Below are positions 1 through 26,491 of a stretch of DNA of 35,632 nt, piece after piece. The position numbers and the translations under genes were made by a program. Numbering within the stretch: the stretch's first letter is position 1; each line of letters starts with the position of its first letter. The stretch covers positions 1-35,632 of the IMG/VR virus record IMGVR_UViG_3300009702_000055; one strand, written 5' to 3'. This stretch comes from a virus. Below the pieces are notes generated by a model that had not been told where the DNA came from, did not search any database, and saw only the letters and a program-made list of their open reading frames with translations.

Positions 1-196
1 CGCAAGCGCCCGCGATAGACGCCGCCGCCGCTTCTAACTCGCGCAGCGTGTCGCCGCTTTCAAGCATGGCCTTTGCAACCCGGCGAGCCTGCGCCGCCGA
101 GCCCGTAAACGTGCTCACCAGCGTTGCGCCGTGGATGATCGCATCGGTCAGGTTGTCCTCCGTAAAGACCCGTGTGTTCAGTCCCGCCACGTCCAT
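1..196 (-). CDS. Hypothetical protein, 3' end cut by window edge
   Basis: Sixty-five codons are visible, starting at an ATG at 196 and running off the left edge without a stop. A purine-rich AAAGGGG/AGGAC stretch precedes the ATG. The visible protein begins MDVAGLNTRVFTEDNL and continues as a mostly helical, alanine-rich sequence without a recognisable motif. It starts 5 bases after the stop of the zinc-finger gene upstream, so it is probably in the same operon. No function can be assigned. Confidence 0.6.
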   Translation of the reverse strand, partial: MDVAGLNTRVFTEDNLTDAIIHGATLVSTFTGSAAQARRVAKAMLESGDTLRELEAAAASIAGAC

Positions 197-201
197 CTGT
201 C

Positions 202-480
202 CTACCCCTTTCTGAGCCGGTTGGCCCTCGTGTGTGTACTCGTCGTCTTCACCCCGCCCAATACGGCTAGCCGCTTCGTCCCCCCGCACGTCGGGCACGG
301 GATCGGCGCGCCGCCGGACGGCTGGGGGTACGCCCCCCGGCCGTTGTAACTGCGGACCGAGTAGGTCGGGGGGCACGGGACTCGCCCGGCCCCCCGACAC
401 TCGGGACACACAATCTCCGCATCGACCCGTCGGTCGCGCCCGACCAGCCTCAGTCCCGGGGGCGTCACGGCGTCGGGCAT
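202..480 (-). CDS. Small DnaJ-type zinc-finger protein
   Basis: A 92-residue protein starting MPDAVTPPGLRL. It carries CPECRGAG about 36 residues in and CPTCGGT about 75 residues in. These are the CxxCxGxG and CxxCxGT halves of a DnaJ-like (HSP40 cysteine-rich) zinc module, so it probably binds one zinc ion. There is no J domain, so it is not a full co-chaperone; phages often encode such stand-alone modules of unknown role. The start at 480 is preferred because the same frame further upstream (to 696) reads through the gene before it, and because GGAG lies upstream of this ATG. The start overlaps the end of the preceding gene by 16 bases, suggesting translational coupling. Confidence 0.7.
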   Translation of the reverse strand: MPDAVTPPGLRLVGRDRRVDAEIVCPECRGAGRVPCPPTYSVRSYNGRGAYPQPSGGAPIPCPTCGGTKRLAVLGGVKTTSTHTRANRLRKG

Positions 481-722
481 GATACCGGGCTCCACATCCG
501 GCCCGAGAGCCGATCCCGGCTCATCTCCGCCCGGACACCGATCGGTTGCATCAAGTGGCCCATGACCATCTCGGCCGTATCGTAGTGGTGCTGGCAGAGC
601 CACACACCCCTCAACTGGATCACGGCGTCGCTCACCGCCCCCGAGTGGGGGTCCACTCCGCAATGCCCACACTTGGGAGCGGGCGGATTCGCCCATCCCA
701 TACTTTCCCGCTCATAACCCAT
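465..722 (-). CDS. Small putative zinc-binding protein
   Basis: An 85-residue protein starting MGYERESMGWANPP. A CGHC motif at about residues 18-21 and CQHH at about 43-46 look like a CxxC...CxxH zinc site. The remainder has no recognisable family. AGAAGGGG lies about 5 bases before the ATG at 722; a second ATG at 701 is a possible alternative start. It overlaps the following DnaJ-type zinc-finger gene, so the two small zinc proteins are probably co-translated. Function unknown. Confidence 0.65.
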   Translation of the reverse strand: MGYERESMGWANPPAPKCGHCGVDPHSGAVSDAVIQLRGVWLCQHHYDTAEMVMGHLMQPIGVRAEMSRDRLSGRMWSPVSCPTP

Positions 723-813
723 TTCGGCCCCTTCTACTCTACCGCTTCCCGCTCGGCTCCGCGCCGCCCCGCTACGGGGGCTGCCCGCCTACCGGGCCTA
801 CCCGTCCCCGCGC

Positions 814-1404
814 TCAATCATCGGACCCGCCCCTCCACTTCGCCTTCAGTCCGAGCAGCACCACTGCTGCGTTCTCCTCGTCGGTATAAAGCGGGCCGGG
901 GGGTACCCGCACGCCGCTGCGGTAGAACTCCACCACCCGGCCCTTCTTCTCGGCCCGCTCGATGATAACCGGCTCCTCCAGCCCCCTGTCGTCCACGTCG
1001 GCGACCACCGCCACTCCGCCCTTCCCGTATACGACGCCGCGCCGCAGGCCGTTCCACGCCTGGAACGCCCGAGTCGGCCCGTCGGCGTCAACGACCCCCA
1101 GCCGCTCACCGCCCGCCGTCGGTATGTAGTACGCCCGCATACGGGGGGGTGCCCAGCCGTCCCGGACCCAATCGCGGAACAGGGCGTCCACGTCGTCGCG
1201 GGTCGGCTCGACCGGGTAACTCTCGCAACTGTACGGGGTAGCGATCCAAACGTGGTCCCCGCGGACCACCATCGCATCGACCGTGTACCAGCGGGGCATA
1301 CCGATCTCCCGGGCCACGGCGTTCCCCCTCTCACGGATGTATTCCACGAGTTCGTCGTTGCTCAGTCTGGCTGCCCTGGCTGCCGTGGTTGTCTCCGTCG
1401 TCAT
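814..1404 (-). CDS. Hypothetical protein, 196 aa
   Basis: Starts MTTETTTAARAARLSNDELV at 1404. AAGGGAG lies 7 bases upstream and a sigma70-like promoter (-10 TATATT at 1425-1430) lies just beyond, so this is probably the first gene of a transcript with a leader of about 14 bases. The protein is mixed alpha/beta, with tryptophan- and tyrosine-rich stretches (MPRWYTVDAMVVRGDHVWIA) and an acidic end. No domain, signal peptide or membrane segment is recognisable. It could be an early host-interaction protein given its own promoter, but that is inference only. Confidence 0.7.
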   Translation of the reverse strand: MTTETTTAARAARLSNDELVEYIRERGNAVAREIGMPRWYTVDAMVVRGDHVWIATPYSCESYPVEPTRDDVDALFRDWVRDGWAPPRMRAYYIPTAGGERLGVVDADGPTRAFQAWNGLRRGVVYGKGGVAVVADVDDRGLEEPVIIERAEKKGRVVEFYRSGVRVPPGPLYTDEENAAVVLLGLKAKWRGGSDD

Positions 1405-1424
1405 GCGTTGCTCCCTTCAGGAGA

Positions 1425-1453
1425 AATATAGGCCGCTTGGCACTTAGAATCAA
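1425..1453 (-). promoter_or_regulatory. Sigma70-like promoter for the 196-aa gene
   Basis: Minus strand: -35 TTGATT (1448-1453), a 17-base spacer and -10 TATATT (1425-1430). The 3' half of the spacer (GCCAAGCGGCC) closely matches that of the promoter at 5900-5928 (GCCAACCGGCC), so the two look like members of one phage promoter set. The predicted start is near 1418, directly before the AAGGGAG ribosome binding site. Confidence 0.7.
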
Positions 1454-1497
1454 GCGGTCTTCCCGTACTCGATCAATGTCGGCCTATGCACTCGCAT
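1450..1497 (-). CDS. Possible 15-codon micro-ORF or leader peptide
   Basis: A GGGAAGGGACAAAG ribosome-binding-like sequence precedes an ATG at 1497. The frame reads MRVHRPTLIEYGKTA and ends at a TGA that overlaps the -35 box of the promoter at 1448-1453. It lies in the gap of about 120 bases between two genes. The Shine-Dalgarno-like context is as good as that of its neighbours, but the frame is too short to judge coding potential. It may be chance, a leader peptide or a tiny protein. Confidence 0.25.
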   Translation of the reverse strand: MRVHRPTLIEYGKTA

Positions 1498-1527
1498 CTT
1501 TGTCCCTTCCCGCCGATCCCGGCGATT

Positions 1528-1839
1528 CTACACTGCTACGAGCAGCAGCGGCCTCCCATCCCAGCCGATAACGTACCCGTCCCGCGACGCGATCAGGTGC
1601 GCGTGCAGTTCACGTCGCCCGACCCACTCGGCCCTGTAGCCGTCGTCCGGCTCGCAGCCCTCAGCGTGGGCGACGTACCCGTCCAGCCCCGCCACCGCGT
1701 CCTCATCGTGCGCGCGAGCAACGAACACGACCGTTTCGCTGGCGATCCCCCGCGGGCACACCCTCACCCCGACGTACCCCATATCGGCCCGCTTGCTCAC
1801 CTCTACCCGGCTGCCCCGCACCGTGATCGTCCTACCCAT
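1528..1839 (-). CDS. Hypothetical protein, 103 aa
   Basis: Begins MGRTITVRGSRVEVSKRADM. The ATG at 1839 is preferred over the GTG directly before it (1842) because GGGGGG lies 6 bases upstream of the ATG. It is a beta-rich basic/acidic small protein with one GCEPDDGYRAEW segment and a hydrophobic end (GRPLLLVAV). No family is recognisable. The start overlaps the end of the 54-aa upstream gene by 8 bases, and its ribosome binding site lies inside a repeat copy that also encodes the end of that gene. A short CGCCG-GGAT-CGGCG hairpin follows the stop near 1513-1526. Confidence 0.65.
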   Translation of the reverse strand: MGRTITVRGSRVEVSKRADMGYVGVRVCPRGIASETVVFVARAHDEDAVAGLDGYVAHAEGCEPDDGYRAEWVGRRELHAHLIASRDGYVIGWDGRPLLLVAV

Positions 1840-1996
1840 CACTCACCCCCCGGTCGGCCCCGCCCGGTAGGCCGGAGACGAGGGGGTCATCGGCAGCAGG
1901 AAATTGCTCAGTCATGTAGGCGCAGAACAGCCGGGCTGAAACCTTACTTAGACCAGCATCCTTCGCAATACGCTGCAAATCCTCCTGGTTCGTCAC
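1832..1996 (-). CDS. Small hypothetical protein, 54 aa, with repeat-derived C-terminus
   Basis: GTG start at 1996 with a very good ribosome binding site (AAAGGAG, 7 bases upstream). The protein begins VTNQEDLQRIAKDAGLSK (initiator Val read as Met) and the first 35 residues look like a small helical, possibly DNA-binding, fold. From about residue 36 the frame runs through an intercistronic hairpin repeat (DDPLVSGLPGGADRG). In the other copies of the repeat, TGA at this spot is the upstream stop codon; here that TGA is out of frame, as if a one-base shift extended the protein. It ends with TAG at 1832-1834, overlapping the next gene. Confidence 0.65.
   Translation of the reverse strand: MTNQEDLQRIAKDAGLSKVSARLFCAYMTEQFPAADDPLVSGLPGGADRGVSDG
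1847..1889 (-). repeat. Intercistronic hairpin repeat, copy 1 (inside a coding frame)
   Basis: The minus strand reads TGACCCCCTCGTCTCC, then a CCTACCGGGCGGGG core, which matches the 5' half of the other copies (closest to the one at 5153-5222). The second hairpin is missing or degenerate. This copy encodes the tail of the 54-aa protein and provides the G-rich ribosome binding site for the gene starting at 1839. Confidence 0.6.
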
Positions 1997-2028
1997 GATG
2001 AATCTCCTTTCATGCTGCGTTCTGGCCC

Positions 2029-2092
2029 TCGATCACCCCGAGCCGTGAAACCCGCCCCCGCCCGGTAAGGCGGGGGCGAGAGAGATCAGTCA
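2029..2092 (-). repeat. Intercistronic hairpin repeat, copy 2
   Basis: Starts at the TGA stop of the 2090-2566 gene. It contains a perfect 10-bp stem with a 6-base loop (arms CGCCCCCGCC and GGCGGGGGCG, 2053-2078), then a weaker hairpin (CTCG...CGAG) before the AAAGGAG of the next gene. There is no U-tract after the strong stem, so it is not a classical intrinsic terminator. Confidence 0.7.
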
Positions 2093-2566
2093 GACGCGCC
2101 AGGCGTGCGACAGCGTAGCCTTCCCCAGTCGATCCCCACCGGTCGTCGTTACCATGCAGGGCGTTTCTCGCACAACATGAATGACACGGCGTGCCCGCTC
2201 GATCACGCGCCCACTTCGATCTCGCACTGTCCGAATAGCGCTGATCGTCGCGCCCGCGATGCCGCTCATCAGCCCCGGATAGAGTCCCACGCGGCGATCT
2301 CGCTCGGTCGTGAGCATCACGATCGAGCCGAAGCGGTCGTATGCACACGCACCGGCCACGCGCTGGCGGGGGCGACGATCGCCAGCGAACGGCCAGAGGC
2401 ACTCGCCGACCGCGCACCAGTGATTAGCCTCGCGCACCACATGATCCCCCTCATCCCAATAGACCGAGCCGCTCTCGCTCACATGGTCGGGCTCGCGCTC
2501 CGGCGGGGAGCACGGCGTAAATACGCCGTGAGTGCCCAAGTGAAAGTTGTGCCAGCAGATCGCCAT
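2090..2566 (-). CDS. Hypothetical protein, 158 aa
   Basis: Begins MAICWHNFHLGTHGVFTPCS. The frame is open back to an ATG at 2608, but that start would overlap the upstream gene by 37 bases; the start at 2566 leaves a 5-base gap and begins where the sequence becomes protein-like. Both starts have only weak upstream G-rich sequence. The N-terminal half has Cys and His residues (CWHNFH, NHWCAVGEC) that could bind a metal. The C-terminal half is basic and beta-rich (RTVRDRSGRVIERARRVIHV). No family recognised. Confidence 0.6.
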   Translation of the reverse strand: MAICWHNFHLGTHGVFTPCSPPEREPDHVSESGSVYWDEGDHVVREANHWCAVGECLWPFAGDRRPRQRVAGACAYDRFGSIVMLTTERDRRVGLYPGLMSGIAGATISAIRTVRDRSGRVIERARRVIHVVRETPCMVTTTGGDRLGKATLSHAWRV

Positions 2567-2571
2567 GCTTG

Positions 2572-3150
2572 CTATAGCCCCACGCTGTGTATGATTCTCT
2601 CGATGCACTCGCCGCTGAGCGGTATCAGGGGGCGGTAGGGATTCTTGCCGCTCATCACCGTGGGGTCGAGATCAACGCAGGTGCCCACCGACCCCGCGTC
2701 AGCAAGCAGAATGGCCAATCTATCTCTCGGAAGCAGGCGAATAGCGGTCCCGTTCACCCACGTCATCACGCCGTCCTCTCTCTCGCCCTGAACGAGCAGG
2801 ATGCGGCCGTAGTCGGGGTGGTCGATGATCGAGACACCACGACCACCGCCCTCAACGGGCCACCAAATCGATTGCTCGACAAGCCGACAGTCCACACTAT
2901 TGCTCGCCACGCGCTCATTACCAGCCCTCAGCCAATCCTCAAGGCTTTGCCAACCTGCGCCCGATCCCCATTCATGGTAGAAATCCACACCCCCTGCACG
3001 CTTGACAAGCACGATGGCCGTTCGATCTTTGCCCGCGTGCCAAGCCGTGATCGACAGCCCCGCGTCGTCGGCCACCCACGTCCGTCGGTATCCCGCATCG
3101 TCCATCAGTTCCATCACCCTGTCCCTTGGCGTGTTCTCATGCTTTCCCAT
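2572..3150 (-). CDS. Hypothetical protein, 192 aa, two-domain member of a local paralogue family
   Basis: The N-terminal half (about residues 1-75, MGKHENTPRDRVMELMDDAG ... GSGAGWQSLEDWLRA) is a clear paralogue of the separate 88-aa gene at 3245-3511. The C-terminal half (about 105-192, GVSIIDHPDYGRILLVQGE ... IRLLPRD ... MSGKNPYRP) is a clear paralogue of the separate gene at 4798-5133. So this protein looks like a fusion of two units that also exist as single genes nearby, or the ancestor from which they split. The ATG at 3150 has AAGGAG 6 bases upstream; its leader is nearly identical to that of the 88-aa gene. Function unknown; the short basic/acidic halves could be host-takeover proteins. 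Confidence 0.75.
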   Translation of the reverse strand: MGKHENTPRDRVMELMDDAGYRRTWVADDAGLSITAWHAGKDRTAIVLVKRAGGVDFYHEWGSGAGWQSLEDWLRAGNERVASNSVDCRLVEQSIWWPVEGGGRGVSIIDHPDYGRILLVQGEREDGVMTWVNGTAIRLLPRDRLAILLADAGSVGTCVDLDPTVMSGKNPYRPLIPLSGECIERIIHSVGL

Positions 3151-3173
3151 TGTTCACTCCTTGTTGTTCTACC

Positions 3174-3247
3174 TCGGCCAGGCGGACCCCCCGCCCGGCC
3201 CGGGAAACCCACCCCCGCCCCACCGGGCGGAGACCGGTGAGGGGTCA
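3174..3247 (-). repeat. Intercistronic hairpin repeat, copy 3
   Basis: Lies between the 88-aa gene (TGA at 3245-3247) and the 192-aa gene. It contains CCGCCC-CACC-GGGCGG (3215-3230 on the plus strand) and a GC-rich second segment, then the shared leader GAGGTAGAACAACAAGGAG. It is more diverged than the other copies. Confidence 0.6.
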
Positions 3248-3511
3248 GTCGATCTGCGCTCTGAGCCAATCCTCCAAGCTCTGCCAACCTGCGCCCGATG
3301 CCGTGTGCGAGTATGTCCTCCCGTACTCGTGGTAATTCCATCCCATTCTTCCGCCCCACTCCACGAGCATGAGAAGGGTCTCAAAATCCCGCACAGGATG
3401 ACACGCCGTGACCATCGAGCCGGGCAGGCCACGCACCCAAATCTGCCGATATCCCGCGCCGTCCATCAGTTTCATCGCCCTGTCCTTGGGCGTACTCTCA
3501 TGCTTTCCCAT
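3245..3511 (-). CDS. Hypothetical protein, 88 aa, paralogue of the N-terminal half of its neighbour
   Basis: Starts MGKHESTPKDRAMKLMDGAG and ends SGAGWQSLEDWLRAQID. It shares the opening MGKHE-x-TP-x-DR, the GYR-x-x-WV segment and the SGAGWQSLEDWLRA end with the first 75 or so residues of the 192-aa protein downstream (2572-3150). The leaders of both genes (GAGGTAGAACAACAAGGAGT before the ATG) also match, so leader and gene were duplicated together. Unlike the downstream protein it stops straight after the shared domain, where a repeat element begins. Function unknown. Confidence 0.75.
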   Translation of the reverse strand: MGKHESTPKDRAMKLMDGAGYRQIWVRGLPGSMVTACHPVRDFETLLMLVEWGGRMGWNYHEYGRTYSHTASGAGWQSLEDWLRAQID

Positions 3512-3533
3512 CGTTTACTCCTTGTTGTTCTAC

Positions 3534-3599
3534 CTCGGCCCGGGACCACCCCAGGCCGTAATCCCGCCCCCGCCCGGTGGGGCGGGGACGAGGGAGTCA
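3534..3599 (-). repeat. Intercistronic hairpin repeat, copy 4
   Basis: Begins at the TGA stop of the 70-aa gene (3597-3599). It contains a perfect 8-bp stem with 4-base loop (CCCCGCCC-GGTG-GGGCGGGG, 3568-3587 on the plus strand), then a second imperfect hairpin (CTGGG...TCCCGG on the minus strand) before the leader of the 88-aa gene. Confidence 0.7.
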
Positions 3600-3809
3600 G
3601 TCGGGATTCAGCGACACCTCGCCGATCCAATCGCCACTGGGATCGGCGATCGACCGGTGGCGAGTCCCATCGGTGTAGAAGTAGCCGAGGGAGAACAGAT
3701 CATCGGTGCGACCGCATCCCTCGATGCGGTCCGCTATGAGGCGGATGCGGTCGGCGATCTGTCTTGTGCTCAACTCATCCACGCGGTCGATTGCGATTTG
3801 GATTTGCAT
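3597..3809 (-). CDS. Hypothetical protein, 70 aa
   Basis: Starts MQIQIAIDRVDELSTRQIAD. The N-terminal 35 residues are predicted amphipathic helix with regular I/L spacing (IADRIRLIADRIEG); the rest is a short beta-rich segment (SLGYFYTDG) with an acidic end. The ATG at 3809 overlaps the TGA of the upstream gene in an ATGA arrangement, so translation is probably coupled. No family recognised. Confidence 0.7.
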   Translation of the reverse strand: MQIQIAIDRVDELSTRQIADRIRLIADRIEGCGRTDDLFSLGYFYTDGTRHRSIADPSGDWIGEVSLNPD

Positions 3810-4315
3810 CAGCAGGTGCCCTCAACATCGGGCACCTGCCAAGCCGCGTAGGCAGTCTCGCGCGCGGCGGCCAGCCGGGCGACACTGGCGGCGTGGGCAT
3901 CGCGGACCGAATCGACGATCCGGGTCGCCTGTTGGAGGTCGGCGACCGCCTCCGCCACGAGGGGGGCGATGGCGGAACCCTCGTAGTCCTGGGAGACGGC
4001 GCGGTAATCCCGCCCGGTCCCCCCATCGGGGGGCCGCTTATAATACCGACCCCAACACTGAGACAACTCGTACCCCATGACTGGGGTGCTGCCGGGACCG
4101 AAGTCCCGAAGGTCGCGCCGCAGCATGGCCTCGTCCGGGCCTGTGGTTTCGAGCCACAGCGTGGCCCGAACGCGAATGACGGGGATATCCGCCGCTCCCG
4201 ACGGCGGATGGTCGGGCGGGTCGGCGAGGACAACCTCGGCGAGCCACCCGTCCCCCAGAGAAGCCCAAAGCGTGTCTCCCGGCTTCGCCGGACGGGTGAG
4301 AGTGATCTGTTCCAT
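3809..4315 (-). CDS. Hypothetical protein, 168 aa
   Basis: Starts MEQITLTRPAKPGDTLWASL at 4315, with an AAAGAAG ribosome binding site 9 bases upstream. The frame is open further back, but that part crosses a repeat element and reads as non-protein sequence. The N-terminal half is beta-rich (GWLAEVVLADPPDHPP, IRVRATLWLETTG). The C-terminal 60 residues are helical and alanine-rich (APLVAEAVADLQQATRIVDS), possibly a coiled coil. It ends ATGA-overlapped with the 70-aa gene. No family recognised. Confidence 0.7.
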   Translation of the reverse strand: MEQITLTRPAKPGDTLWASLGDGWLAEVVLADPPDHPPSGAADIPVIRVRATLWLETTGPDEAMLRRDLRDFGPGSTPVMGYELSQCWGRYYKRPPDGGTGRDYRAVSQDYEGSAIAPLVAEAVADLQQATRIVDSVRDAHAASVARLAAARETAYAAWQVPDVEGTC

Positions 4316-4340
4316 GTCGTGTCTTCTTTCGATTGTGTGC

Positions 4341-4409
4341 GATCCGGCCCGGGACCATCCTGGGCCGGGAATCCCGCCCCCGCCCATCAAGGCGGAGGCG
4401 AGCGGGTCA
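4341..4409 (-). repeat. Intercistronic hairpin repeat, copy 5
   Basis: Begins at the TGA stop of the 99-aa gene (4407-4409). The first hairpin is a 9-bp stem with one G-U pair and a 6-base loop (4376-4399). The second is a GGATGGTCCCGGG-type hairpin just before the GGATCGCA leader of the next gene. Confidence 0.7.
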
Positions 4410-4706
4410 GTCGGCGGCGGCGCCCGTGATCTTCTCCTCGCCCCTGGTGTCCACAACGACCACATTGTCGTCTGAGCGCAACTCGTCGAGCACGAGCACG
4501 TCCTCCCCGTCCCGCTCGGTCCAGTGGCCCCAGTGACTGTCCCCACCCCACCAGACGGCGCCACGACCATTGGGCCAGCACGTCATCCGACCGGTGCCTC
4601 CATCGTAATCGATCAGCCATGTCTCGCATCCGACCACCAGATCTCGGCCCTGATCTGTGGGACACGCTGCCCGCGTCTCGTCCAAGTTGTCCGCTGTCAC
4701 CATCAT
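4407..4706 (-). CDS. Hypothetical protein, 99 aa
   Basis: Two adjacent ATGs (4706 and 4703) follow AAAGGAGACACAC, the ribosome binding leader shared by several genes here. Starts MMVTADNLDETRAACPTDQG. The middle is strikingly rich in tryptophan and glycine (RGAVWWGGDSHWGHW) and the end is acidic. Small beta-rich folds can look like this, but no family is recognisable. It is flanked on both sides by intercistronic hairpin repeats. Confidence 0.7.
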   Translation of the reverse strand: MMVTADNLDETRAACPTDQGRDLVVGCETWLIDYDGGTGRMTCWPNGRGAVWWGGDSHWGHWTERDGEDVLVLDELRSDDNVVVVDTRGEEKITGAAAD

Positions 4707-4730
4707 CGTGTGTCTCCTTTCGCGGTTGCG

Positions 4731-4800
4731 ATCCGCCCGGGACCATCCCGGACCGGGAAACCCACCCCCGCCCGTTGGGGCGGGGGCGGGAGAACGCCTA
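4731..4800 (-). repeat. Intercistronic hairpin repeat, copy 6 (strongest hairpins)
   Basis: Lies right after the TAG (4798-4800) of the 4798-5133 gene. The first stem is 13 bp with a 4-base loop (4761-4790); its single A-C mismatch on the plus strand is a G-U pair in the minus-strand RNA. The second is a perfect 6-bp stem with 3-base loop, CCGGGA-TGG-TCCCGG (4737-4751), directly before the leader of the 99-aa gene. No U-tract follows either stem. Confidence 0.75.
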
Positions 4801-5133
4801 GATCCCCAGTGCGCGGGCGATTTCGCCCACGTCCTCCCCGGCGATCGGGAGCGGCGGGCGGAACGGATCCCGACCGGACATCATGTCCGGATCAAGATCC
4901 GCCGTGATGTCCGGGGGCTCCGCCCCGTCCACGAGCAGTGTCGCCCATGTATCCCGCGGCAGGAGGCGGATGGCGGTCCCTCGGGACCACAGCAGTGCGC
5001 CGTCCTCCCTCTTACCCTCGATCAGCATGATCCGCCCGTATTCGGGGTGATCGATGATCGCCACCCCCCGACAGTCATGCCATCCGGCGTTCCACCCAGA
5101 CTTCGTGACCAGGGTGGGCGTATTGGTATCCAT
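4798..5133 (-). CDS. Hypothetical protein, 111 aa, paralogue of the C-terminal half of the 192-aa protein
   Basis: Starts MDTNTPTLVTKSGWNAGWHD at 5133, with AAAGGAG 8 bases upstream. Reading further back in frame enters a repeat element and is not used. From GVAIIDHPEYGRIMLIEGKR to the end (IRLLPRD, LDPDMMSGRDPFRP, ARALGI) it aligns without large gaps to the last 88 or so residues of the 192-aa protein at 2572-3150. The conserved IIDHP-x-YGRI core suggests one compact domain that can stand alone. Function unknown. Confidence 0.75.
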   Translation of the reverse strand: MDTNTPTLVTKSGWNAGWHDCRGVAIIDHPEYGRIMLIEGKREDGALLWSRGTAIRLLPRDTWATLLVDGAEPPDITADLDPDMMSGRDPFRPPLPIAGEDVGEIARALGI

Positions 5134-5152
5134 GGTGTGTCTCCTTTCAGTG

Positions 5153-5222
5153 CGATCCGCCCGGGACCATCCCGAGTCGGGAAACCCGCCCCCGCCCGGT
5201 AGGGTGGAGACGAGGGATGTCA
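5153..5222 (-). repeat. Intercistronic hairpin repeat, copy 7
   Basis: Begins at a TGA (5220-5222) that ends a start-less reading frame. The first hairpin is weakened by mismatches (CTCCACCC paired with GGGCGGGG); the second, CGGGA-TGG-TCCCG, is intact and sits just before the GGATCGCA/AAAGGAG leader of the 111-aa gene. The sequence is closest to the copy absorbed into the 54-aa gene. Confidence 0.65.
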
Positions 5223-5297
5223 ACCGTCATTGACCGGATCGGCGTCGTGGTGCTCACAGTCGGCGATTGCCCGCTCGTATCCAGTGTCGTGTCCCCA
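5220..5297 (-). pseudogene. Possible relic of a small gene (no start codon)
   Basis: The frame ending at TGA 5220-5222, exactly where a repeat copy begins, reads GYERAIADCEHHDADPVNDG before the stop. That is plausible protein, but the frame has no ATG, GTG or TTG between this stop and an in-frame TGA at about 5300. Just upstream, GGGGACACGACAC resembles the ribosome binding leader of a neighbour (GAAGACACGACATG), as if the start codon had been lost. It may be a decayed gene between the 177-aa gene and the repeat, or chance. Confidence 0.3.
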
Positions 5298-5321
5298 TCA
5301 TCAGGGCGGGGGCCCGTATCA

Positions 5322-5855
5322 CTACGCCCGTGCGATCGGATCGAACCGCTCGCTCTTGGTCGGCTCGGTGGACTCCACGACGCTCGCCGCGTAGTCCCCG
5401 TTCGCCGGGGCGACGCCCCGCATCGTCTCATCCGCGAGGCGGCTGATCCGCGTGAGGGCCCTCTCGTCGGCCGGGTCCAGCCCGTACGCGCCGACAAGCC
5501 CGAGCGCCGTCTTGAGCAGGTCGCGCAGGCTTGCCGCTCGATCGAAGTTGGCGACCGCCAACTCCTTCCACCTCGGCGATCGCCGCTCGCTCACCTTCAC
5601 GTTCGGGACGTATGGGCCGTCCTCGAAGGGCTTGCCCGCCGCCAGATGGGCGAGCGCCATCGCGCCCACCGTCCCCGCGGCCTTCTTGGCGTCGGCAGCC
5701 AGAGCGGACATGGACTTGTAGCCCGAGAGGCCCCAGTTGGGGAACTCCCCGGTCGCCTCGACGGCGGCTTGGAGTTCCGCCGGGAACCCCGCTACCTCGT
5801 CCGCCCATCCCTCGAAGGTCCGGGCGTGCTCCAATACTTCCGCTTTCCGTGCCAT
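5322..5855 (-). CDS. Hypothetical protein, 177 aa, first gene after the strong promoter
   Basis: Starts MARKAEVLEHARTFEGWADE at 5855, with GGAAGGGAC upstream. An in-frame start at 5882 exists, but it lies within about 11 bases of the predicted transcription start and in a leader hairpin, so it is unlikely. The protein is almost entirely helical with many alanines (AALAADAKKAAGTVGAMALA, RISRLADETMRG). No membrane segment or catalytic motif is seen. As the first gene behind the best promoter in the window it is likely highly expressed. Function unknown. Confidence 0.75.
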   Translation of the reverse strand: MARKAEVLEHARTFEGWADEVAGFPAELQAAVEATGEFPNWGLSGYKSMSALAADAKKAAGTVGAMALAHLAAGKPFEDGPYVPNVKVSERRSPRWKELAVANFDRAASLRDLLKTALGLVGAYGLDPADERALTRISRLADETMRGVAPANGDYAASVVESTEPTKSERFDPIARA

Positions 5856-5870
5856 TGTGTGTCCCTTCCG

Positions 5871-5890
5871 GTCCGGGATCATTCCCGATT
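5871..5890 (-). promoter_or_regulatory. Stem-loop in the 5' leader
   Basis: CGGGA-ATGA-TCCCG on the minus strand lies within a few bases of the predicted transcription start (about 5893). It is the same type as the second hairpin of the intercistronic repeats, so each gene in this operon appears to have a similar stem-loop before its ribosome binding site. Confidence 0.5.
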
Positions 5891-5899
5891 GACCATAGG

Positions 5900-5928
5900 A
5901 CTATAGGCCGGTTGGCGCATTGAGTCAA
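5900..5928 (-). promoter_or_regulatory. Strong sigma70-like promoter for the small-gene operon
   Basis: Minus strand: -35 TTGACT (5923-5928), a 17-base spacer and -10 TATAGT (5900-5905). The predicted start is near 5893. Two palindromic operator-like sites lie upstream at 5945-5965 and 5995-6015; the near one is centred about 62 bp upstream of the start. This is the best promoter match in the window. Confidence 0.8.
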
Positions 5929-5944
5929 GGGTGTTGGGAGAGAA

Positions 5945-5965
5945 ATCGTGACAGACTGTCACGAT
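5945..5965. promoter_or_regulatory. Palindromic operator-like site 1
   Basis: A perfect inverted repeat, ATCGTGACA, 3 bases (GAC), TGTCACGAT. It is one of six copies in the window. It lies 16 bases upstream of the -35 box of the promoter at 5900-5928. Confidence 0.75.
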
Positions 5966-5994
5966 CTCCGCTCGGGGCCGGTTCGGTAGTCGGA

Positions 5995-6015
5995 GCCGTG
6001 ACAGGTTGTCACGAT
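5995..6015. promoter_or_regulatory. Palindromic operator-like site 2
   Basis: CGTGACA-GGT-TGTCACG with an additional AT on the right; the left outer bases are changed. It lies 50 bp from site 1. The TGA stop of the HU-like gene (6009-6011) is inside the palindrome. Confidence 0.7.
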
Positions 6016-6689
6016 TCGTCGGGCGATTCGCTACCGGCGGCCTCGCGCGCGTCGGTCGGGTCGGTGGACTCGTCCGCCTTGCCCCCCGCCGTCTTGGGCC
6101 TCACAACGTCGGCGCCGGTCGCCCTGTCCCTCCCCCCGACCACGGTAGAGTCCTCCACGATCAGACCGCTCTTCCGATCGTGCTCACTGGGATCTTCGAT
6201 CGTCATGCCTTGCTTCCCCGCCGTCCGGCGTATGGACTCCCGCATACGGGCCATCGCCGACGTAGTGCTCCTGTGTAGCATTTGGGGCGCTCCCGCGTTC
6301 TTCTGCGCGACCCTCCGCACCCGCCACATCTCCGCCGCCGTCCCCGCCGTCGAGTCGGGATCGTACTGGGATCTCAACTGTGCGCGGAAGTGCGCCAGCG
6401 GTTCCATCGCGGGGATCGGCACCCCCCGCGTGCGCCCGCCGATGGGCATCCTTACGCCGAACGCGCCGAACCCCGGGACGTAGACGATCGACCCCGCGCA
6501 GACCTCTTGAGCGATCTCATCGAACAGGAACGTCGCTACCCAGGCCACCCGCGCCGAGTCGATCCCCGAGCGCCCCGCCGCCCGGCTGATAACACGGTGG
6601 AGTGGGTCGAGACGCTTAGACGTATTCCCGCGCCCCTGCACGCGGAACGTCCGCCTCGGGATCTTCGTCCCACGGCCTACCCCTCGCAT
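6009..6689 (-). CDS. HU/IHF-like DNA-binding domain protein, 226 aa
   Basis: Residues about 28-105 resemble the HU/IHF family: helical start (LHRVISRAAGRSGIDSARVA), a second helix, then the hallmark VYVPGFGAFGVR, matching the family's V-x-L/I-PGFG-x-F-x-V-R. The beta-arm that follows is shorter than in true HU (GGRTRGVPIPAMEP), and a helix (LAHFRAQLRSQY) closes the domain. HU proteins are about 90 residues; this one has an extra basic N-terminus and a long acidic, low-complexity C-terminal tail. It probably bends or coats DNA, perhaps during packaging or in the head, given its place directly after portal. The start at 6689 overlaps the portal stop by 13 bases; no strong ribosome binding site. 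The stop lies inside an operator-like palindrome. Confidence 0.65.
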   Translation of the reverse strand: MRGVGRGTKIPRRTFRVQGRGNTSKRLDPLHRVISRAAGRSGIDSARVAWVATFLFDEIAQEVCAGSIVYVPGFGAFGVRMPIGGRTRGVPIPAMEPLAHFRAQLRSQYDPDSTAGTAAEMWRVRRVAQKNAGAPQMLHRSTTSAMARMRESIRRTAGKQGMTIEDPSEHDRKSGLIVEDSTVVGGRDRATGADVVRPKTAGGKADESTDPTDAREAAGSESPDES

Positions 6690-8545
6690 AGCACACCGTC
6701 CCGGCGCCGCCCCCGCTCGGCCATCTCGCTCAGCCGCCCCAAGTCGTCCCTCAGTTGCGCCGCCTCCTTCGAATCGTCAACGCTGTCCTCAATGAACGTC
6801 CCGACCACGGGGAGCATACTGGGGTCGATCTGCTGGGACGCGGCCCCAACCATGTCGTCCTCGTGGAGCCACGCGATATCACCGATGACCTTTCGCAGCA
6901 TGGGGCTCCCATGGACCGCCCTGGCAATCGCGGCCGCCTCCCCATTGGACACGCCGGTAAACCCGGTCTGCCCCGCTGGGCCGAATACCCTTCGGATTGC
7001 CGCCGGGTCGGCCGCCCACTTCTTCCGCTCGTCGAGAGACATCGCCGTCTGGTCGGCGAACCTTGCGAACCGCTCCTCGGGCTCGGCACCATCGCCGTCC
7101 TTCGCCATCAGCCCCCTGATAACCTTCTCGGGGAGTTTGGCGTAGGTGGACAGGATGTACGCGGCCCACGCCTGCGGGTCCAGCCTGAAGTCGCCCGCAA
7201 ACCGGGACGCCTGCTCCACAATGTTGTACCGCAGCTGGACCAACTCGGACCGCTCGAACTCGTCGAGGTATGAGATCGGCGTCATCTGTACGACGTACTC
7301 GTTCCCATCCGCATAGGGCCAGAACTTGTTCGGCTCCACTCCCCCCGTCCTCCCCGTATCGGACCTCAGCGCGAAGTGGATATCCAACGCCGTGCGAATC
7401 CCATAAATCAGGGCCTTACGGATACGCTTGCCCGTGCGCGCAAACCTTACGTCCTGCTGCATAAGGGACGCCTTGGACGGCTCCGGCGCGTCCCCCAATC
7501 CGAGGAACCCCTTGGGGATGCGCGCGGCGGCCATGAACTTATCCAAGAAGTAGTTGAGGTCGTAGATCCGGTCCACGTCCCCCCCGCCGCTCAGCGTCTC
7601 TACCCGCGTCTGGTTCTCCCCCCTGACGGGGATGAACAGATCCTCTACCGGCGACAGCGGGTTGTAATACTTCTGGTACGCCCCGCTGGCCGGATCAACG
7701 AACTCATGCTTGCGGAGCCGACGACGCCAGTCGTTGACGTAATCCATTGCCTCCGCGTCGGAAAGCGTACCCGTATCCACGAGGACCATGTTCCGCTCCG
7801 GCGTCCGCCGCAACCGGAACCTCAGCAGGGCGTCCTCAATCAGCGCCATCGACCGCCACGGGCGGAACAGCGCGTCGAGCATCGATGTGCCATACGTCGT
7901 GTGCTCGTCCTTCCCGAGCAGGCGGAAGTGAACGTAGTCCCACGGCCACGAGTCGGTCCGCCCCTTCTTATCGTCGGTCACGCCCAGCCGGAACTTCTTG
8001 CCATCCTCCCGGAATCCGATCAGCCTGCCGAACTTGTCCTCGACGCGGTGTACCTTCGCGGGATCGACGTACTGCCAAGACAGCACCCCGTTCCCCGATG
8101 AGTAGATCATCCGCCGGAAGTCGTCCCCATACTTACAAATCCGCCGCGCTATCGCGGATACCTTGTCCTCCATCTTCAGGTTCGTCAGCCCCTCGTCGCC
8201 CACACGGACCATCTCGGGGTTCTTCGACTCGACCCAGACGGACTTCCCCTTGTCGTAGTCAACCTGTGTTACCTCCTCCGCGTAGGTATCCAGAACGGAG
8301 ATCGCAAGGTCGAACTGGTCCATCTCATCAAACGTCCGGTACCGCTGCTGCCGGTCGGACGTGAGCGAGATGTTCTCCCGCCAGTACGCGTTCTGGGCGT
8401 CGTCGTCCTTGTCCTTCTCCCGCATCGCCACCGGACGGCGCTCGAGCCCGAACATTTGCAGCAGCGCGAACAGGGGCCCCCGCCGGTGGGGCCCCCCAAC
8501 CCTTGCCCCGGGTACCTGGTCGTCGCTGAAACGGTCAAACGGCAT
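6677..8545 (-). CDS. Portal protein
   Basis: A 622-residue protein that resembles the T4 gp20-type portal. Telling segments are the NPLSPVEDLFIPVRGENQTR stretch, the VETLSGGGDVDRIYDLNYF stretch and the KFMAAARIPKGFLGL stretch, which follow in the family's usual order. The long helical C-terminal part fits the portal crown. The portal forms the dodecameric ring at one capsid vertex through which terminase pumps DNA. It lies immediately downstream of the large terminase gene (15-base gap, GAGGG before the ATG), the usual order. The N-terminus (MPFDRFSDDQVPGARV) is variable in this family. Confidence 0.85.
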   Translation of the reverse strand: MPFDRFSDDQVPGARVGGPHRRGPLFALLQMFGLERRPVAMREKDKDDDAQNAYWRENISLTSDRQQRYRTFDEMDQFDLAISVLDTYAEEVTQVDYDKGKSVWVESKNPEMVRVGDEGLTNLKMEDKVSAIARRICKYGDDFRRMIYSSGNGVLSWQYVDPAKVHRVEDKFGRLIGFREDGKKFRLGVTDDKKGRTDSWPWDYVHFRLLGKDEHTTYGTSMLDALFRPWRSMALIEDALLRFRLRRTPERNMVLVDTGTLSDAEAMDYVNDWRRRLRKHEFVDPASGAYQKYYNPLSPVEDLFIPVRGENQTRVETLSGGGDVDRIYDLNYFLDKFMAAARIPKGFLGLGDAPEPSKASLMQQDVRFARTGKRIRKALIYGIRTALDIHFALRSDTGRTGGVEPNKFWPYADGNEYVVQMTPISYLDEFERSELVQLRYNIVEQASRFAGDFRLDPQAWAAYILSTYAKLPEKVIRGLMAKDGDGAEPEERFARFADQTAMSLDERKKWAADPAAIRRVFGPAGQTGFTGVSNGEAAAIARAVHGSPMLRKVIGDIAWLHEDDMVGAASQQIDPSMLPVVGTFIEDSVDDSKEAAQLRDDLGRLSEMAERGRRRDGVLCEG

Positions 8546-8560
8546 CGCTCGTGCCCTCGT

Positions 8561-10609
8561 CTATCCCCGCGACATCATCCGCGCCTGATCCCGCAGCGAA
8601 TCCCACTGGGGGGCTCCCACCCGGGGCGTCTCCCGCCGGGGTGCCCTACCCCGCATTGTACCCGCGCCCCGACGCCGATCCGGTGCCGGGTCGGCCCCGC
8701 CGACCGGGGTGCCGACGTGGGATACGGACCGCTTATCCGTTACGCAGGCGTAAACCGCGCCAGCAACGGCGTCCGCCACGTCCTTCCTGCCCCTGGATCC
8801 ATCCGATCCCGTAGTGGGGTGGTCAACCTTTCCGGTCGCCGGGGACCGCTCCAAATCGACTACCTCGGACTCCCACGGCGCGTACCGATACGTTGCGAGC
8901 CGCCGCTCGGAGAGCGTAGACCGGAGCATCAGGTACGGCTCGGGCGTCCGATCCACCGACAGTAACTTCGACTCGATGTTCTGCTTCCGAATGATCTGCA
9001 ACGAGTCGGCGGACTGGAACGAGTCCATCGTAACCATCGCAAGCGGGAACAGCCCGGCAAGGTAGACAATGAACGACCTGATCTTGGAGAAGTCGATCTC
9101 CCCCACGTCGGGGGGCCAGACCCGGAGCATAAAGTCCACGACGATGTACGGGCTCTCGCTCTGGGAGAGCGCCCCGTCGGGGTGCCCCCTCTCGATCTCC
9201 TTGAGCCCCCCGACGTGGACCATCGCCATCCCAAGGCAATCCATCGTGCGCGACGGGTCAACGTGGATATATCGCAGCGCGGTCGGGTGGTACCTTGGCA
9301 CCCACTTCCCCCCCTTGATCTTACACAGCGCGTCAACCTGGAATACGTCCTCAAGCAGCGTGTCCCGCATCGTCGAAAGGGAAATCGACTCTACCGTGAA
9401 CGGGTGCCGAAGGTGCTCCCGCCGGGCATCGACTACCGACTGCCGGTCGTAGATCAGCGGGGTAATCCCGTGGGTAGCGACACCCGCGATGTCCCGCAGC
9501 GCCCGGTCCACGTCCTCCTCGAAGGCGTCCCGGTACTCGGACGGGACCGGGATGATCTTCGCACCCGGCTTCTTCCTCTCTTTGTCGGCGAGTATCCGGC
9601 TCGGCGTAACGCGGTCTCCGATCTGTACCCGGAACTTCCGCCCCTTGAACAGGTACGACGGCTTCACGTCCCACAGCCGGAACTCGGTTACACGGCTGAC
9701 CGCCGGGTCGGCCGCCGCCACCTTGCGCTCCCAGAACGCGGTCCTGTCCCGCTTAGATGAAACGTAGAGCATCAGCCCCGGGACCACACCGCCGGGCCGG
9801 GTGAACCGGGACCGGATCCGCGACTCGGTAGCGTTTGACAACTCATACGCCTGACCAACGGGGTCGCCCTCGACAGACCGCCTCTCACCCATGAACGACG
9901 CCTCGTCGATCAACAGGCTGTAGAGGTCTTGACCCAGCGCATGAATCGCCCGTGATCCGGGGACGATAACAACGCCGCAGCCCCGCAGGTCCACAAACGA
10001 TCGCTTCGGCGATCGCGGCGCGTGCGCCAGGAAGTACGGGCTACCCCCCAGCATGGTTTGCAACTTCGCGTACCCGGTCAGGCCCACGGCCTCCTTTGTC
10101 GCGGAGTAAATGCCGAAGGCGACCCGCGACCCGGGCAGGAGACCGTAGTACCTCGCCGGATCCCGCATACACGTCAGCCGGTATACCTGATAGAGCAGAG
10201 CGACTACGGCCACCGTCGTTTTCCCCACCCCGATCGCCCCGCCCAGAAACCACTTGTAGATCCCGCTCCCGGGCCTGAATACATCGGACAGTTCCGCCTT
10301 CCAGCGGTCGTGCAACCCGGCGGTAAACCGACCGAGGTACTCGCGGTCGTCTACGAAGGTATCAATCGACACGGGACGCCGGACGTAATCGACCTCCCAG
10401 TAGATGTCGTACATCGGGGTACGCCCGTCCGAGCCGTCCCGGACGATCGCATCGGTCAGCCACTTGATAACCTCCCGCTGCTCGTGCGGGGTCAGCGTAT
10501 CAAAGTACGATCGGCACCCGTGGATCGCGTCGGTAGCCACACGGGCAAACAACGCCTCCGCCGCCTTGGATCCCTTGGGCCTCGGCTTAGCGGCCACCCC
10601 TACGCCCAC
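8561..10609 (-). CDS. Terminase large subunit (DNA-packaging ATPase/nuclease)
   Basis: A 682-residue motor protein. Walker A is GGAIGVGKTT (about residues 123-132) and Walker B is YSLLIDEAS (about 230-238, D235/E236). The LYVSSKRDRTAF segment (about 281-292) fits the coupling motif. The C-terminal RNase H-like nuclease domain shows candidate metal-binding acids in YIHVDPSRTMD (D451), MVTMDSF (D529) and GRKDVADAVAGAVYA (D610/D613). It translocates DNA into the prohead through portal and cuts concatemers. The start is GTG at 10609, overlapping the upstream stop by 10 bases; GTG at 10597 is an alternative. Confidence 0.9.
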   Translation of the reverse strand: MGVGVAAKPRPKGSKAAEALFARVATDAIHGCRSYFDTLTPHEQREVIKWLTDAIVRDGSDGRTPMYDIYWEVDYVRRPVSIDTFVDDREYLGRFTAGLHDRWKAELSDVFRPGSGIYKWFLGGAIGVGKTTVAVVALLYQVYRLTCMRDPARYYGLLPGSRVAFGIYSATKEAVGLTGYAKLQTMLGGSPYFLAHAPRSPKRSFVDLRGCGVVIVPGSRAIHALGQDLYSLLIDEASFMGERRSVEGDPVGQAYELSNATESRIRSRFTRPGGVVPGLMLYVSSKRDRTAFWERKVAAADPAVSRVTEFRLWDVKPSYLFKGRKFRVQIGDRVTPSRILADKERKKPGAKIIPVPSEYRDAFEEDVDRALRDIAGVATHGITPLIYDRQSVVDARREHLRHPFTVESISLSTMRDTLLEDVFQVDALCKIKGGKWVPRYHPTALRYIHVDPSRTMDCLGMAMVHVGGLKEIERGHPDGALSQSESPYIVVDFMLRVWPPDVGEIDFSKIRSFIVYLAGLFPLAMVTMDSFQSADSLQIIRKQNIESKLLSVDRTPEPYLMLRSTLSERRLATYRYAPWESEVVDLERSPATGKVDHPTTGSDGSRGRKDVADAVAGAVYACVTDKRSVSHVGTPVGGADPAPDRRRGAGTMRGRAPRRETPRVGAPQWDSLRDQARMMSRG

Positions 10610-11244
10610 TTCTTGCGGGGCTTCCGGCCCCCGCGCCGCTTAGGCGGGGGGGTAAGCGCCTCCGCCATCCGCCGCCGGATCGTGGGCAACTCCGGCAACA
10701 GCCGCTCCATCGCAGTCCTGACCCGCTCCCGGGAGATCACCTGCTCCGCCTCCGTTTCCAGCGATGGGTCTACCTCGGGGACGTCATCGGCGTCCTCAAT
10801 CCGCTCAAACAGCCGATCAAGGTCGCCCTCAATGTAAACTATCTTCGGCCCGACCCCCAGCCGCGACAGGACTTCCTTCGCGGCCTCAATGCGATCCCTA
10901 TCCGGGGCCGCGTCCGCAAGGAGCGGCTCCCCATCGTTATCGAGCAGTACCTCGTTGTTCGGCCCCCGCATGTAGAGCGGGCCCCGCAGCGCCTGCTCAA
11001 GCACCTCCACCGCCCTATCACCCAAGACCGCCAACTCCCGTACCAAGTTGTACCGGATTCTCGCCTCGATCACGGGCGCGTGCGCGTACTCCCGCTGGAC
11101 CGTCTGGTGATACTCTCGGATCTCCGGGCGCGCGAAGAACTCCCTTACCCTCTCGATCGTCCACCCCTCGTCCAAGAGGAGCAGCGGCCCCCTTGCGAAA
11201 ACGTCGCGGACGGTCCTTCGCTCCGTGGGAGTCAGGTTACTCAT
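10600..11244 (-). CDS. Putative terminase small subunit or packaging-associated protein
   Basis: A 214-residue, mainly helical protein starting MSNLTPTERRTVRDVFARGP. Its position directly before terminase large subunit, its length and its helical N-terminus (WTIERVREFFARPEIREYHQ) suit a terminase small subunit that recognises phage DNA, but no helix-turn-helix is certain. The C-terminus is strongly basic (PPPKRRGGRKPRKKWA). The start at 11244 overlaps the stop of the HTH gene by 8 bases. The HTH protein directly upstream is the other candidate for the DNA-recognition subunit. Confidence 0.55.
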   Translation of the reverse strand: MSNLTPTERRTVRDVFARGPLLLLDEGWTIERVREFFARPEIREYHQTVQREYAHAPVIEARIRYNLVRELAVLGDRAVEVLEQALRGPLYMRGPNNEVLLDNDGEPLLADAAPDRDRIEAAKEVLSRLGVGPKIVYIEGDLDRLFERIEDADDVPEVDPSLETEAEQVISRERVRTAMERLLPELPTIRRRMAEALTPPPKRRGGRKPRKKWA

Positions 11245-11542
11245 CGTCGTACAGCCGCTTCGGCACCCTGACCCCCTCATCGGCCATCGCCCGCAGTACC
11301 CACTTGCGCCCCAGCCTGCTCGGCTCCTCCCCGCCGATCCACCGCTGGAACGTCCGCAACCCGACGCCCATCCGCTTCGCGCAGTCGCTCTGCCGCCAGC
11401 CCCGCCCCCGGCACTGCATGTACCAGTCGTAGATCACGCGAGACAGCCCGCCGTCCGGCCTCGCCAACTCCGGCTCCCTCCCCCTCCGCTTCCCGACGGG
11501 CCTCCGACTCTCCCGCAACCGTACCCTCACACTACCGCTCAT
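11237..11542 (-). CDS. Small helix-turn-helix protein
   Basis: A 101-residue basic protein. The segment WRQSDCAKRMGVGLRTFQRW (about residues 54-73) has the pattern of a helix-turn-helix, with a GVGLRTF turn and recognition helix similar to phage and transposase HTH domains. The N-terminal 40 residues are Arg-rich and probably disordered. The ATG at 11542 forms an ATGA overlap with the upstream stop, and the end overlaps the putative small terminase. It may recognise the packaging site or act as a regulator. Confidence 0.65.
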   Translation of the reverse strand: MSGSVRVRLRESRRPVGKRRGREPELARPDGGLSRVIYDWYMQCRGRGWRQSDCAKRMGVGLRTFQRWIGGEEPSRLGRKWVLRAMADEGVRVPKRLYDDE

Positions 11543-12144
11543 CACAGCGTCACCCCGACAGCACCGCCAACGCCAGCCCGCTCCACGGCCCAACCCAGCG
11601 ATTCAACAGCGTCCCGAACAAAGCCAACCCCGGCCCGCACGACCCCCGACAGGGGGGCCATTACAATACCCCTCTCCCCACGTGCGACCATCACGGTCTG
11701 GCAGGTAGCGGCGTACCGATGGAGCCATAGCCGCCCCACGGGTACTACACCCATCACAACAATCGCGGGGAACCTTACCCGCTTGACAATCAGCATGGGC
11801 GCGTGCGCCCGCCCGGCCCGACGGGAGAACCTATCCGCTTGGCCCGCGGCCTGATCCCAGTACCCCCAGAGCGGCCACTTCTTCCTCGTAAACACGCCGT
11901 CCAGCGTCCCCCACTCCTGCCGGTCCTTCGCCTCCACGACGAACGGCCACAGTACGCCCGGGCGGTGCAGGATGTCGCCCTCGCCCTCCCAGTGGCCCTC
12001 GATCGGCATGATCGACGTTGACCTCCTTCTCAGCGGAAGGGACGACAACGGAGCGGTAGCATAGTCAACACCCGTAGCGCATGTAGACAGGGCGCGGCAC
12101 ACGCTCCGCTCGAACCTGTCGCCCTTCACCTTGCTGTTCACCAT
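11542..12144 (-). CDS. PD-(D/E)xK nuclease, Holliday-junction-resolvase-like
   Basis: A 200-residue protein starting MVNSKVKGDRFERSVCRALS. The pattern KGDRFER, then GEGDI (about residues 54-58), then PFVVEAKD (about 67-74) matches the PD-(D/E)xK nuclease core with catalytic D, E and K, in the order seen in archaeal Hjc-like resolvases. A following helix with GQADRFSRRAG and hydrophobic strands completes the fold. The neighbouring Mre11/Rad50-like pair and terminase genes suit a role in resolving branched recombination intermediates before packaging. The start overlaps the gp46-like stop by 7 bases. Another restriction-like nuclease function is possible. Confidence 0.6.
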   Translation of the reverse strand: MVNSKVKGDRFERSVCRALSTCATGVDYATAPLSSLPLRRRSTSIMPIEGHWEGEGDILHRPGVLWPFVVEAKDRQEWGTLDGVFTRKKWPLWGYWDQAAGQADRFSRRAGRAHAPMLIVKRVRFPAIVVMGVVPVGRLWLHRYAATCQTVMVARGERGIVMAPLSGVVRAGVGFVRDAVESLGWAVERAGVGGAVGVTL

Positions 12145-22280: not shown

Positions 22281-22301
22281 ATCGTGACAGGTTGTCACGA
22301 T
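22281..22301. promoter_or_regulatory. Palindromic operator-like site 4
   Basis: A perfect 9-3-9 repeat (ATCGTGACA-GGT-TGTCACGAT) centred about 61 bp upstream of the predicted start at 22230. The TGA stop of the UDG-polymerase gene (22295-22297) lies inside it. Confidence 0.75.
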
Positions 22302-26470: not shown

Positions 26471-26491
26471 ATCGTGACAGGTTGTCACGAT
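26471..26491. promoter_or_regulatory. Palindromic operator-like site 5
   Basis: A perfect 9-3-9 copy (ATCGTGACA-GGT-TGTCACGAT) in the gap of about 40 bases between ribonucleotide reductase and primase. No promoter is seen at the spacing found at sites 1 and 4. Confidence 0.72.

Follow-up and report, generated by a model that had tools for sequence, protein, structure and literature searches.

Why should the gaps between the small genes of a single phage operon hold copies of one and the same structured sequence? The question is raised by an uncultured phage, represented by a linear IMG/VR virus record (IMGVR_UViG_3300009702_000055; 35,632 bases, GC content 63-70%), which was analysed over its whole length and is referred to here as the window. 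The recognised genes of the window encode a portal protein, a terminase, an SbcC-like nuclease, an exonuclease, a DNA polymerase, a ribonucleotide reductase and a helicase, and all of them lie on the minus strand, as does the small-gene operon, located downstream of the portal gene, in which the repeated sequence is found. None of the small operon genes had a Pfam match over the cut-off, and a single one matched, weakly, a PHROG of unknown function. The ribonucleotide reductase protein (26495-30019, minus strand) carries extra sequence inside its NrdA-like part (CLAPGTLVYTTRGPVPVKDL...), which, judged by eye, looks like an intein.

Copies, anatomy and promoters

An element of approximately 75 nt was identified on the minus strand in six full copies (E1-E6) and one half copy (E7); the coordinates are given in Table 1. 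A covariance model trained on the six copies recovered the same six, all on the minus strand, a plain repeat search gave six copies as well, and BLAST with E1 as the query recovered E2, E3, E4 and E6 together with the half copy E7. The initial annotation had counted seven related segments; six of these are full copies, while the seventh (E7) is only a half, resembling the first hairpin, at a site now read through by an open reading frame. The sole other distinct model match in the window (27048-26994, 22.6 bits, inside the ribonucleotide reductase gene) was taken as chance, and the remaining matches were first-hairpin stems read from the opposite strand. Rfam 15 gave no match in the window over the gathering score. 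A G-quadruplex was considered for GGGCGGGGGCGGG and rejected, as there are only three runs of three or more G and, in our own judgement, the hairpin should win.

E1-E6 occupy all of the stop-to-start gaps longer than 10 nt between positions 5222 and 1997, and the two element-free junctions in this interval (3809 and 2572/2566) have an overlap or a 5-nt spacing. Homology among the copies extends from the upstream stop (usually GACTGAC) through to the start codon, in the order stop, first hairpin (H1), WUU linker, second hairpin (H2) and ribosome-binding leader. H1 is a GC stem of 13 bp with a 4-nt loop and starts 4-9 nt past the stop, H2 is a stem of about 8-11 bp with a loop that is usually UGG, and the linker between them is UUU or AUU (WUU in 6/6). 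In the alignment the leaders read AAAGGAGACACAC or AACAAGGAGT. Both the filling of nearly every gap and the succession of stop, GC hairpin, second hairpin and ribosome-binding leader had been described in the initial annotation, and both were borne out by E1-E6.

Table 1. Positions of the elements, promoters and neighbouring genes in the window
Feature	Position	Strand	Description
Covariance-model matches, E1-E6	5222-5150, 4798-4726, 4410-4337, 3600-3528, 3245-3172, 2088-2015	-	51.9-87.3 bits
E1, stop to start	5134-5222	-	H1 5214-5185; linker UUU 5184-5182; H2 5180-5157
E2	4707-4800	-	H1 4790-4761; linker UUU; H2 about 4753-4735
E3	4316-4409	-	H1 4402-4373; linker AUU; H2 4368-4344
E4	3512-3599	-	H1 3592-3563; linker AUU; H2 3558-3536
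E5	3151-3247	-	H1 3237-3208; linker UUU; H2 3199-3175 (compensated apex, larger loop)
E6	1997-2092	-	H1 2080-2051; linker UUU; H2 degenerate, about 2044-2024
E7, H1-like half copy only	1854-1889	-	Inside ORF 1996-1832; poor H1; model match 1881-1854, 14.1 bits
Leader hairpin, H2-type	5870-5894	-	Fold and similarity to element H2 plus leader
Operon promoter, TTGACT-17-TATAGT	5900-5928	-	Sigma-70-like; consensus scan and extended motif
Second promoter	1425-1453	-	Sigma-70-like; extended motif in common with 5900-5928
Gene A	4798-5133	-	Follows E1; paralogous to the C-terminal half of gene 2572-3150 (54% identity, 90 aa)
Gene B	3245-3511	-	Follows E4; paralogous to the N-terminal half of gene 2572-3150 (54% identity, 85 aa)
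Fused gene B-A	2572-3150	-	Downstream of E5

The strand of the operon is corrected to minus, and a sigma-70-like promoter lies ahead of it (Table 1); transcription is predicted, from the position of that promoter rather than by mapping, to start near 5895. Within positions 1-12000 a consensus scan for promoters of the sigma-70 type listed two promoter-like sites, none of them within an element. The operon promoter and the second promoter share the extended motif TTGANTCNANNNGCCAANCGGCCTATA, spacer included, which is found nowhere else in the window (0 expected by chance).

A 21-bp palindrome, ATCGTGACAGGTTGTCACGAT, is present in five copies (5945-5965, 5995-6015, 22281-22301, 26471-26491 and 32291-32311; 0.02 expected). 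The copies at 5945 and 22281 end approximately 16 bases ahead of promoter-like TTGACT and TTGACA sequences, and the palindrome looks like a candidate operator or activator site. It is also found, as 24 identical bases, at positions 1387-1410 and 13851 of a viral contig (L092, record G010, 21729 long) of 66% GC with tail-type structural genes; this contig has no clear other similarity to the window and might represent a different portion of a related phage.

RNA pairing, the operon leader and the role of the two hairpins

When compared with dinucleotide shuffles, the full copies gave z values of -1.3 to -3.7, which is moderately unusual for DNA this GC-rich, and neither E7 (-0.35) nor the operon leader (-1.3) was significant alone. 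Copy number and the pattern of pairing are stronger evidence than the folding energies of single copies. In an automatic alignment 90.4% of stem cells were paired, compared to 35-60% when the partners were slid, while covariation was marginal because the H2 of E5 was misplaced. A hand alignment was preferred, a choice made after the folds had been seen. In it 115 of 120 stem cells were paired and two-sided compensated differences occurred in 13 copy pairs (67 of 5000 shuffles did as well), the H2 of E5 carrying two-sided compensated changes. G.U cells numbered 21 against two A.C cells in the same alignment (10 vs 2 distinct events, p=0.039), in agreement with the earlier statement that the stems keep pairing through G-U changes. 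In all six full copies the fold of the transcript strand was better than that of the complementary strand. The same holds on average for the minus strand, and part of the difference could come from a C-to-T bias linked to transcription. As the copies are paralogues the independent events are few, and the covariation among them may be regarded as supportive.

The predicted transcript opens almost exactly at a hairpin (GGUC-AAU-CGGGA-AUGA-UCCCG-GACC), and its leader resembles the H2-plus-leader portion of the elements, with a mean similarity score that was reached by none of 3000 shuffles and by one of 2694 other stretches of the window. The stem-loop that had been matched to the elements at the 5' end of the operon was thereby confirmed. 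The first gene of the operon has no upstream partner, and its leader carries the H2-like hairpin alone, without H1; an H2-type hairpin standing alone in the primary leader is what a 5'-end role for H2 would predict.

The explanation that we favour, tentatively and with rather less than even confidence, is that the elements are promoterless stop-to-start cassettes acting in the operon mRNA, which would be broken in the linker by an endonuclease of the RNase E type. H1, just past the stop, would then close the upstream cistron as its 3'-terminal hairpin, and the downstream cistron would open with H2, just ahead of the leader, as its 5'-terminal hairpin. The single-stranded linker would most likely be cut by the host enzyme at GG↓WUU, and one primary transcript would yield separately protected messages; the first gene would need H2 alone because its 5' end is set by the promoter. 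Cleavage, the identity of the enzyme and the effect on stability are the steps that we infer. GG↓WUU is present between structured flanks in 6/6 elements and fits the RNase E motif RN↓WUU, which was derived from 22,033 mapped sites in Salmonella (PMC5222698), although the conservation of WUU is not independent evidence, since the copies are paralogues. It has been reported that a stem-loop and an RNase E site (GATTT) built between two genes shift their expression ratio in E. coli (PMC10667835), and mRNA-stabilising 5'-terminal stem-loops are established according to work cited in PMC3997798 (Emory 1992; Bouvet 1992). Against processing stand the linker, which is predicted to be mostly unpaired in E1, E3 and E4 but partly paired in E2, E5 and E6, the terminator-like appearance of H1 followed by UUU, and the degenerate H2 of E6; RNase E may also be absent from whichever bacterium serves as host. 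The proposal in the initial annotation that each cistron receives a structured 3' and 5' end is thus the best-supported reading, given H1 after the stop, H2 before the ribosome-binding site and the H2-type hairpin alone in the leader, while the cut points that it named are predicted ones.

In a close rival to processing, every gap would hold a leaky intrinsic terminator (attenuator) made of H1 and its short U run, and expression would fall stepwise along the operon; H2 would be a leader hairpin in its own right, by which translation or stability is tuned. The d'Aubenton-Carafa score, in our own implementation, was above 0 for 6/6 H1 hairpins (9.9-49.7, highest in E2 and E6 and lowest in E3), only 9 of 11,861 stepped 30-nt segments reached 0, mostly at these same hairpins, and hairpins located after stop codons in three relatives (L015, L018 and L153) scored 6-25, some with clear U tails. 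The H1 hairpins rank among the strongest terminator-like hairpins of the window. The U runs of the elements are, however, only 2-3 long, none of the H1 hairpins is listed by a simple terminator scan (5 T in 8), and a ribosome terminating at a stop 4-9 nt ahead of H1 would hinder its folding. We prefer processing for two reasons: it accounts for H2 and the H2-type leader, which termination leaves unexplained, and a series of six terminators with no internal promoter would deprive the distal genes of transcription. Attenuation as the main role is considered possible but somewhat unlikely; leaky termination at two or three U may occur, and processing and termination may both act.

In a phage operon made up of small genes, structured elements between cistrons could also be RNase III processing sites such as those of the T7 early region. 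The usual substrates of RNase III are longer than stems of 13 bp or about 8-11 bp, and no long duplex was found in the folds; the shortness of H1 and H2 means that RNase III is not the first candidate, and we regard its involvement as very improbable. The presence of two hairpins, a fairly constant UGG loop and copies repeated along one operon would be compatible with an element that binds a phage or host protein (a repressor, an antiterminator or an RNA-binding regulator) or that acts directly on RNA polymerase like the put RNA of HK022, a two-hairpin RNA that brings about read-through. In E5 and E6, however, the loop and apex of H2 are altered, so that no loop sequence is kept, and put sites lie near promoters and not in every gap, as the elements do; binding of this kind was judged improbable.

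Gene duplication and the search for the element elsewhere

Genes A and B, which follow E1 and E4, are paralogues of the two halves of the fused gene that follows E5 (Table 1), and a DNA repeat (D5, 82%) extends from gene B across the leader and into H2. As D5 spans the gene B duplication, the leader and part of H2, element and gene appear to have moved together at least once, and the duplicated and fused neighbour genes of this one genome suggest that the cassettes may also travel with genes. An open frame without a start codon (5223-5297, minus strand) ends exactly at the stop of E1 (WGHDTGYERAIADCEHHDADPVNDG, then the stop); no matches or relatives were found for it, and it is perhaps the tail of a deleted gene.

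The elements might be thought of mainly as recombination linkers, which would provide short repeated homology for the duplication, swap and loss of cassettes, with the hairpins as secondary insulation. Homology that spans stop to start, the duplication of gene B with its leader and part of an element, and the occurrence of A and B both alone and fused are all in keeping with this. The retention of pairing through base changes, the stop/start placement and the H2-type leader are nevertheless left unexplained, exchange at an element was seen in none of the related genomes, and recombination as the main role is unlikely. Rather unlikely, too, when taken as a whole, is the wider proposition that a single two-hairpin linker both travels as a recombination module and gives each cistron processed, hairpin-capped ends without promoters or strong terminators. 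If it is right, a gene with its standard two-hairpin linker would be a natural, modular plug-in cassette with locally defined mRNA ends. The gain, duplication or loss of a gene would then leave its neighbours undisturbed, and the means by which phages keep plastic gene regions expressible would become testable with a two-gene reporter.

There was no DNA match to the element among GenBank phages, and it was not found in scans of IMG/VR. In GTDB genomes 37 single matches to a core motif were obtained and attributed to chance, since none has the H1 plus H2 layout. The element family was present in none of 25 related phage records (17-156 kb), whose terminase, portal and adjacent replication genes are some 30-50% identical to those of the window, and weak covariance-model matches in these relatives (E 0.1-10) were taken as chance. 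Single-protein and paralogue-based scans of IMG/VR (terminase, DNA polymerase and gene A) gave no close relatives, while profile scans gave relatives with a terminase identity of at most about 50%, none of them with the element family. Within searches of the 25 relatives, IMG/VR, GTDB and GenBank phages, the sequence family is confined to this contig.

These results bear on the other suggestion of the initial annotation, that the copies are mobile non-autonomous repeats (REP or MITE-like) inserted into the gaps. A multi-copy palindromic intergenic repeat, with E7 inside an open reading frame, would suit such an origin. REP and MITE repeats would be expected to be dispersed, in both orientations and in related genomes, whereas the copies are confined to one operon in one orientation, fit exactly from stop to start and are absent from all 25 related records and from the IMG/VR scans, with chance matches only in GTDB. 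In addition, H1 is not an inverted copy of H2, and the stop and start regions belong to the homology. Mobility is consequently the least probable of the explanations considered here.

Fetched viral loci were also scanned, with a strict filter, for the layout of stop, hairpin, short linker, hairpin, Shine-Dalgarno sequence and start. Three window copies and a single place in each of L015 and L017 were returned, and none on the opposite strands. A similar hairpin pair was seen by eye in L018 (6718-6802), where a small hairpin recurs in the promoter leader of that locus, and L153 has a post-stop hairpin with a U-rich tail. L015, L017, L018 and L153 are distant relatives, and their hairpins, which lie in gaps of the same region, are not sequence homologues of the window element; they hint at, but do not prove, a recurrence of intergenic hairpins here across the phage group. 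In a distant relative (L151) near-identical promoters (TTGACA...GAAGTGTGTAWACT) are located ahead of several genes (14615, 15390, 16314 and 19206), which is another way of equipping each gene.

Comparison with known systems

The PeSL (early promoter plus stem-loop) cassettes of T4-type phages (Arbiol 2010 and Comeau 2014, as cited in PMC4503421) are repeated structured regulatory cassettes between the small genes of a hyperplastic region, tied to gene shuffling. The window likewise has stem-loops in the intercistronic gaps of a small-gene region, whose shuffling is deduced from one genome, and the element may be called PeSL-like in its placement and in the probable shuffling of genes. It falls outside the PeSL class because no recognisable promoter was found inside it by the sigma-70 scan; it also has two hairpins rather than one, and nothing indicates a T4-like phage. 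If the proposition of a travelling linker with processed ends is right, the PeSL idea would be extended to cover RNA processing as well as transcription (promoter plus terminator).

The SAS/ESAS repeats of Cluster K mycobacteriophages, with similar ones in Microbacterium phages (PMC3203893, PMC7302621), are comparable in being phage-specific repeats among non-structural genes, where they share one orientation and sit in short gaps immediately before start codons. SAS is a 13-bp start-associated motif resembling a ribosome-binding site (GGGATAGGAGCCC in Cluster K, GGGAAAGGACCCC in Cluster EF; PMC3203893, PMC7302621), whereas the leaders of the window read otherwise (AAAGGAGACACAC or AACAAGGAGT). 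Changes in the ESAS inverted repeats were reported not to support RNA pairing (PMC3203893), in contrast to the window element, which keeps its pairing and starts at the upstream stop. A further parallel is selective RNA processing and stabilisation, natural or engineered, in operons (PMC10667835), in which a stem-loop ends one cistron and an RNase E motif precedes the next; here one unit is repeated, in a phage, and adds another hairpin at the 5' end of the downstream message, and cleavage is a prediction.

Intrinsic terminators and attenuators share with the element a GC hairpin right past the stop, followed by U residues, and a positive score in 6/6 copies, but differ from it in the short U run, in the lack of a following promoter and in the arrangement of six in series. 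In the early region of T7, RNase III sites lie between the small early genes of one operon; the window resembles it in having structured sites between small genes of one operon, although each consists of short separate hairpins and not of one long duplex. Overall, the element is best filed among phage intercistronic regulatory cassettes, as a variant with new features.
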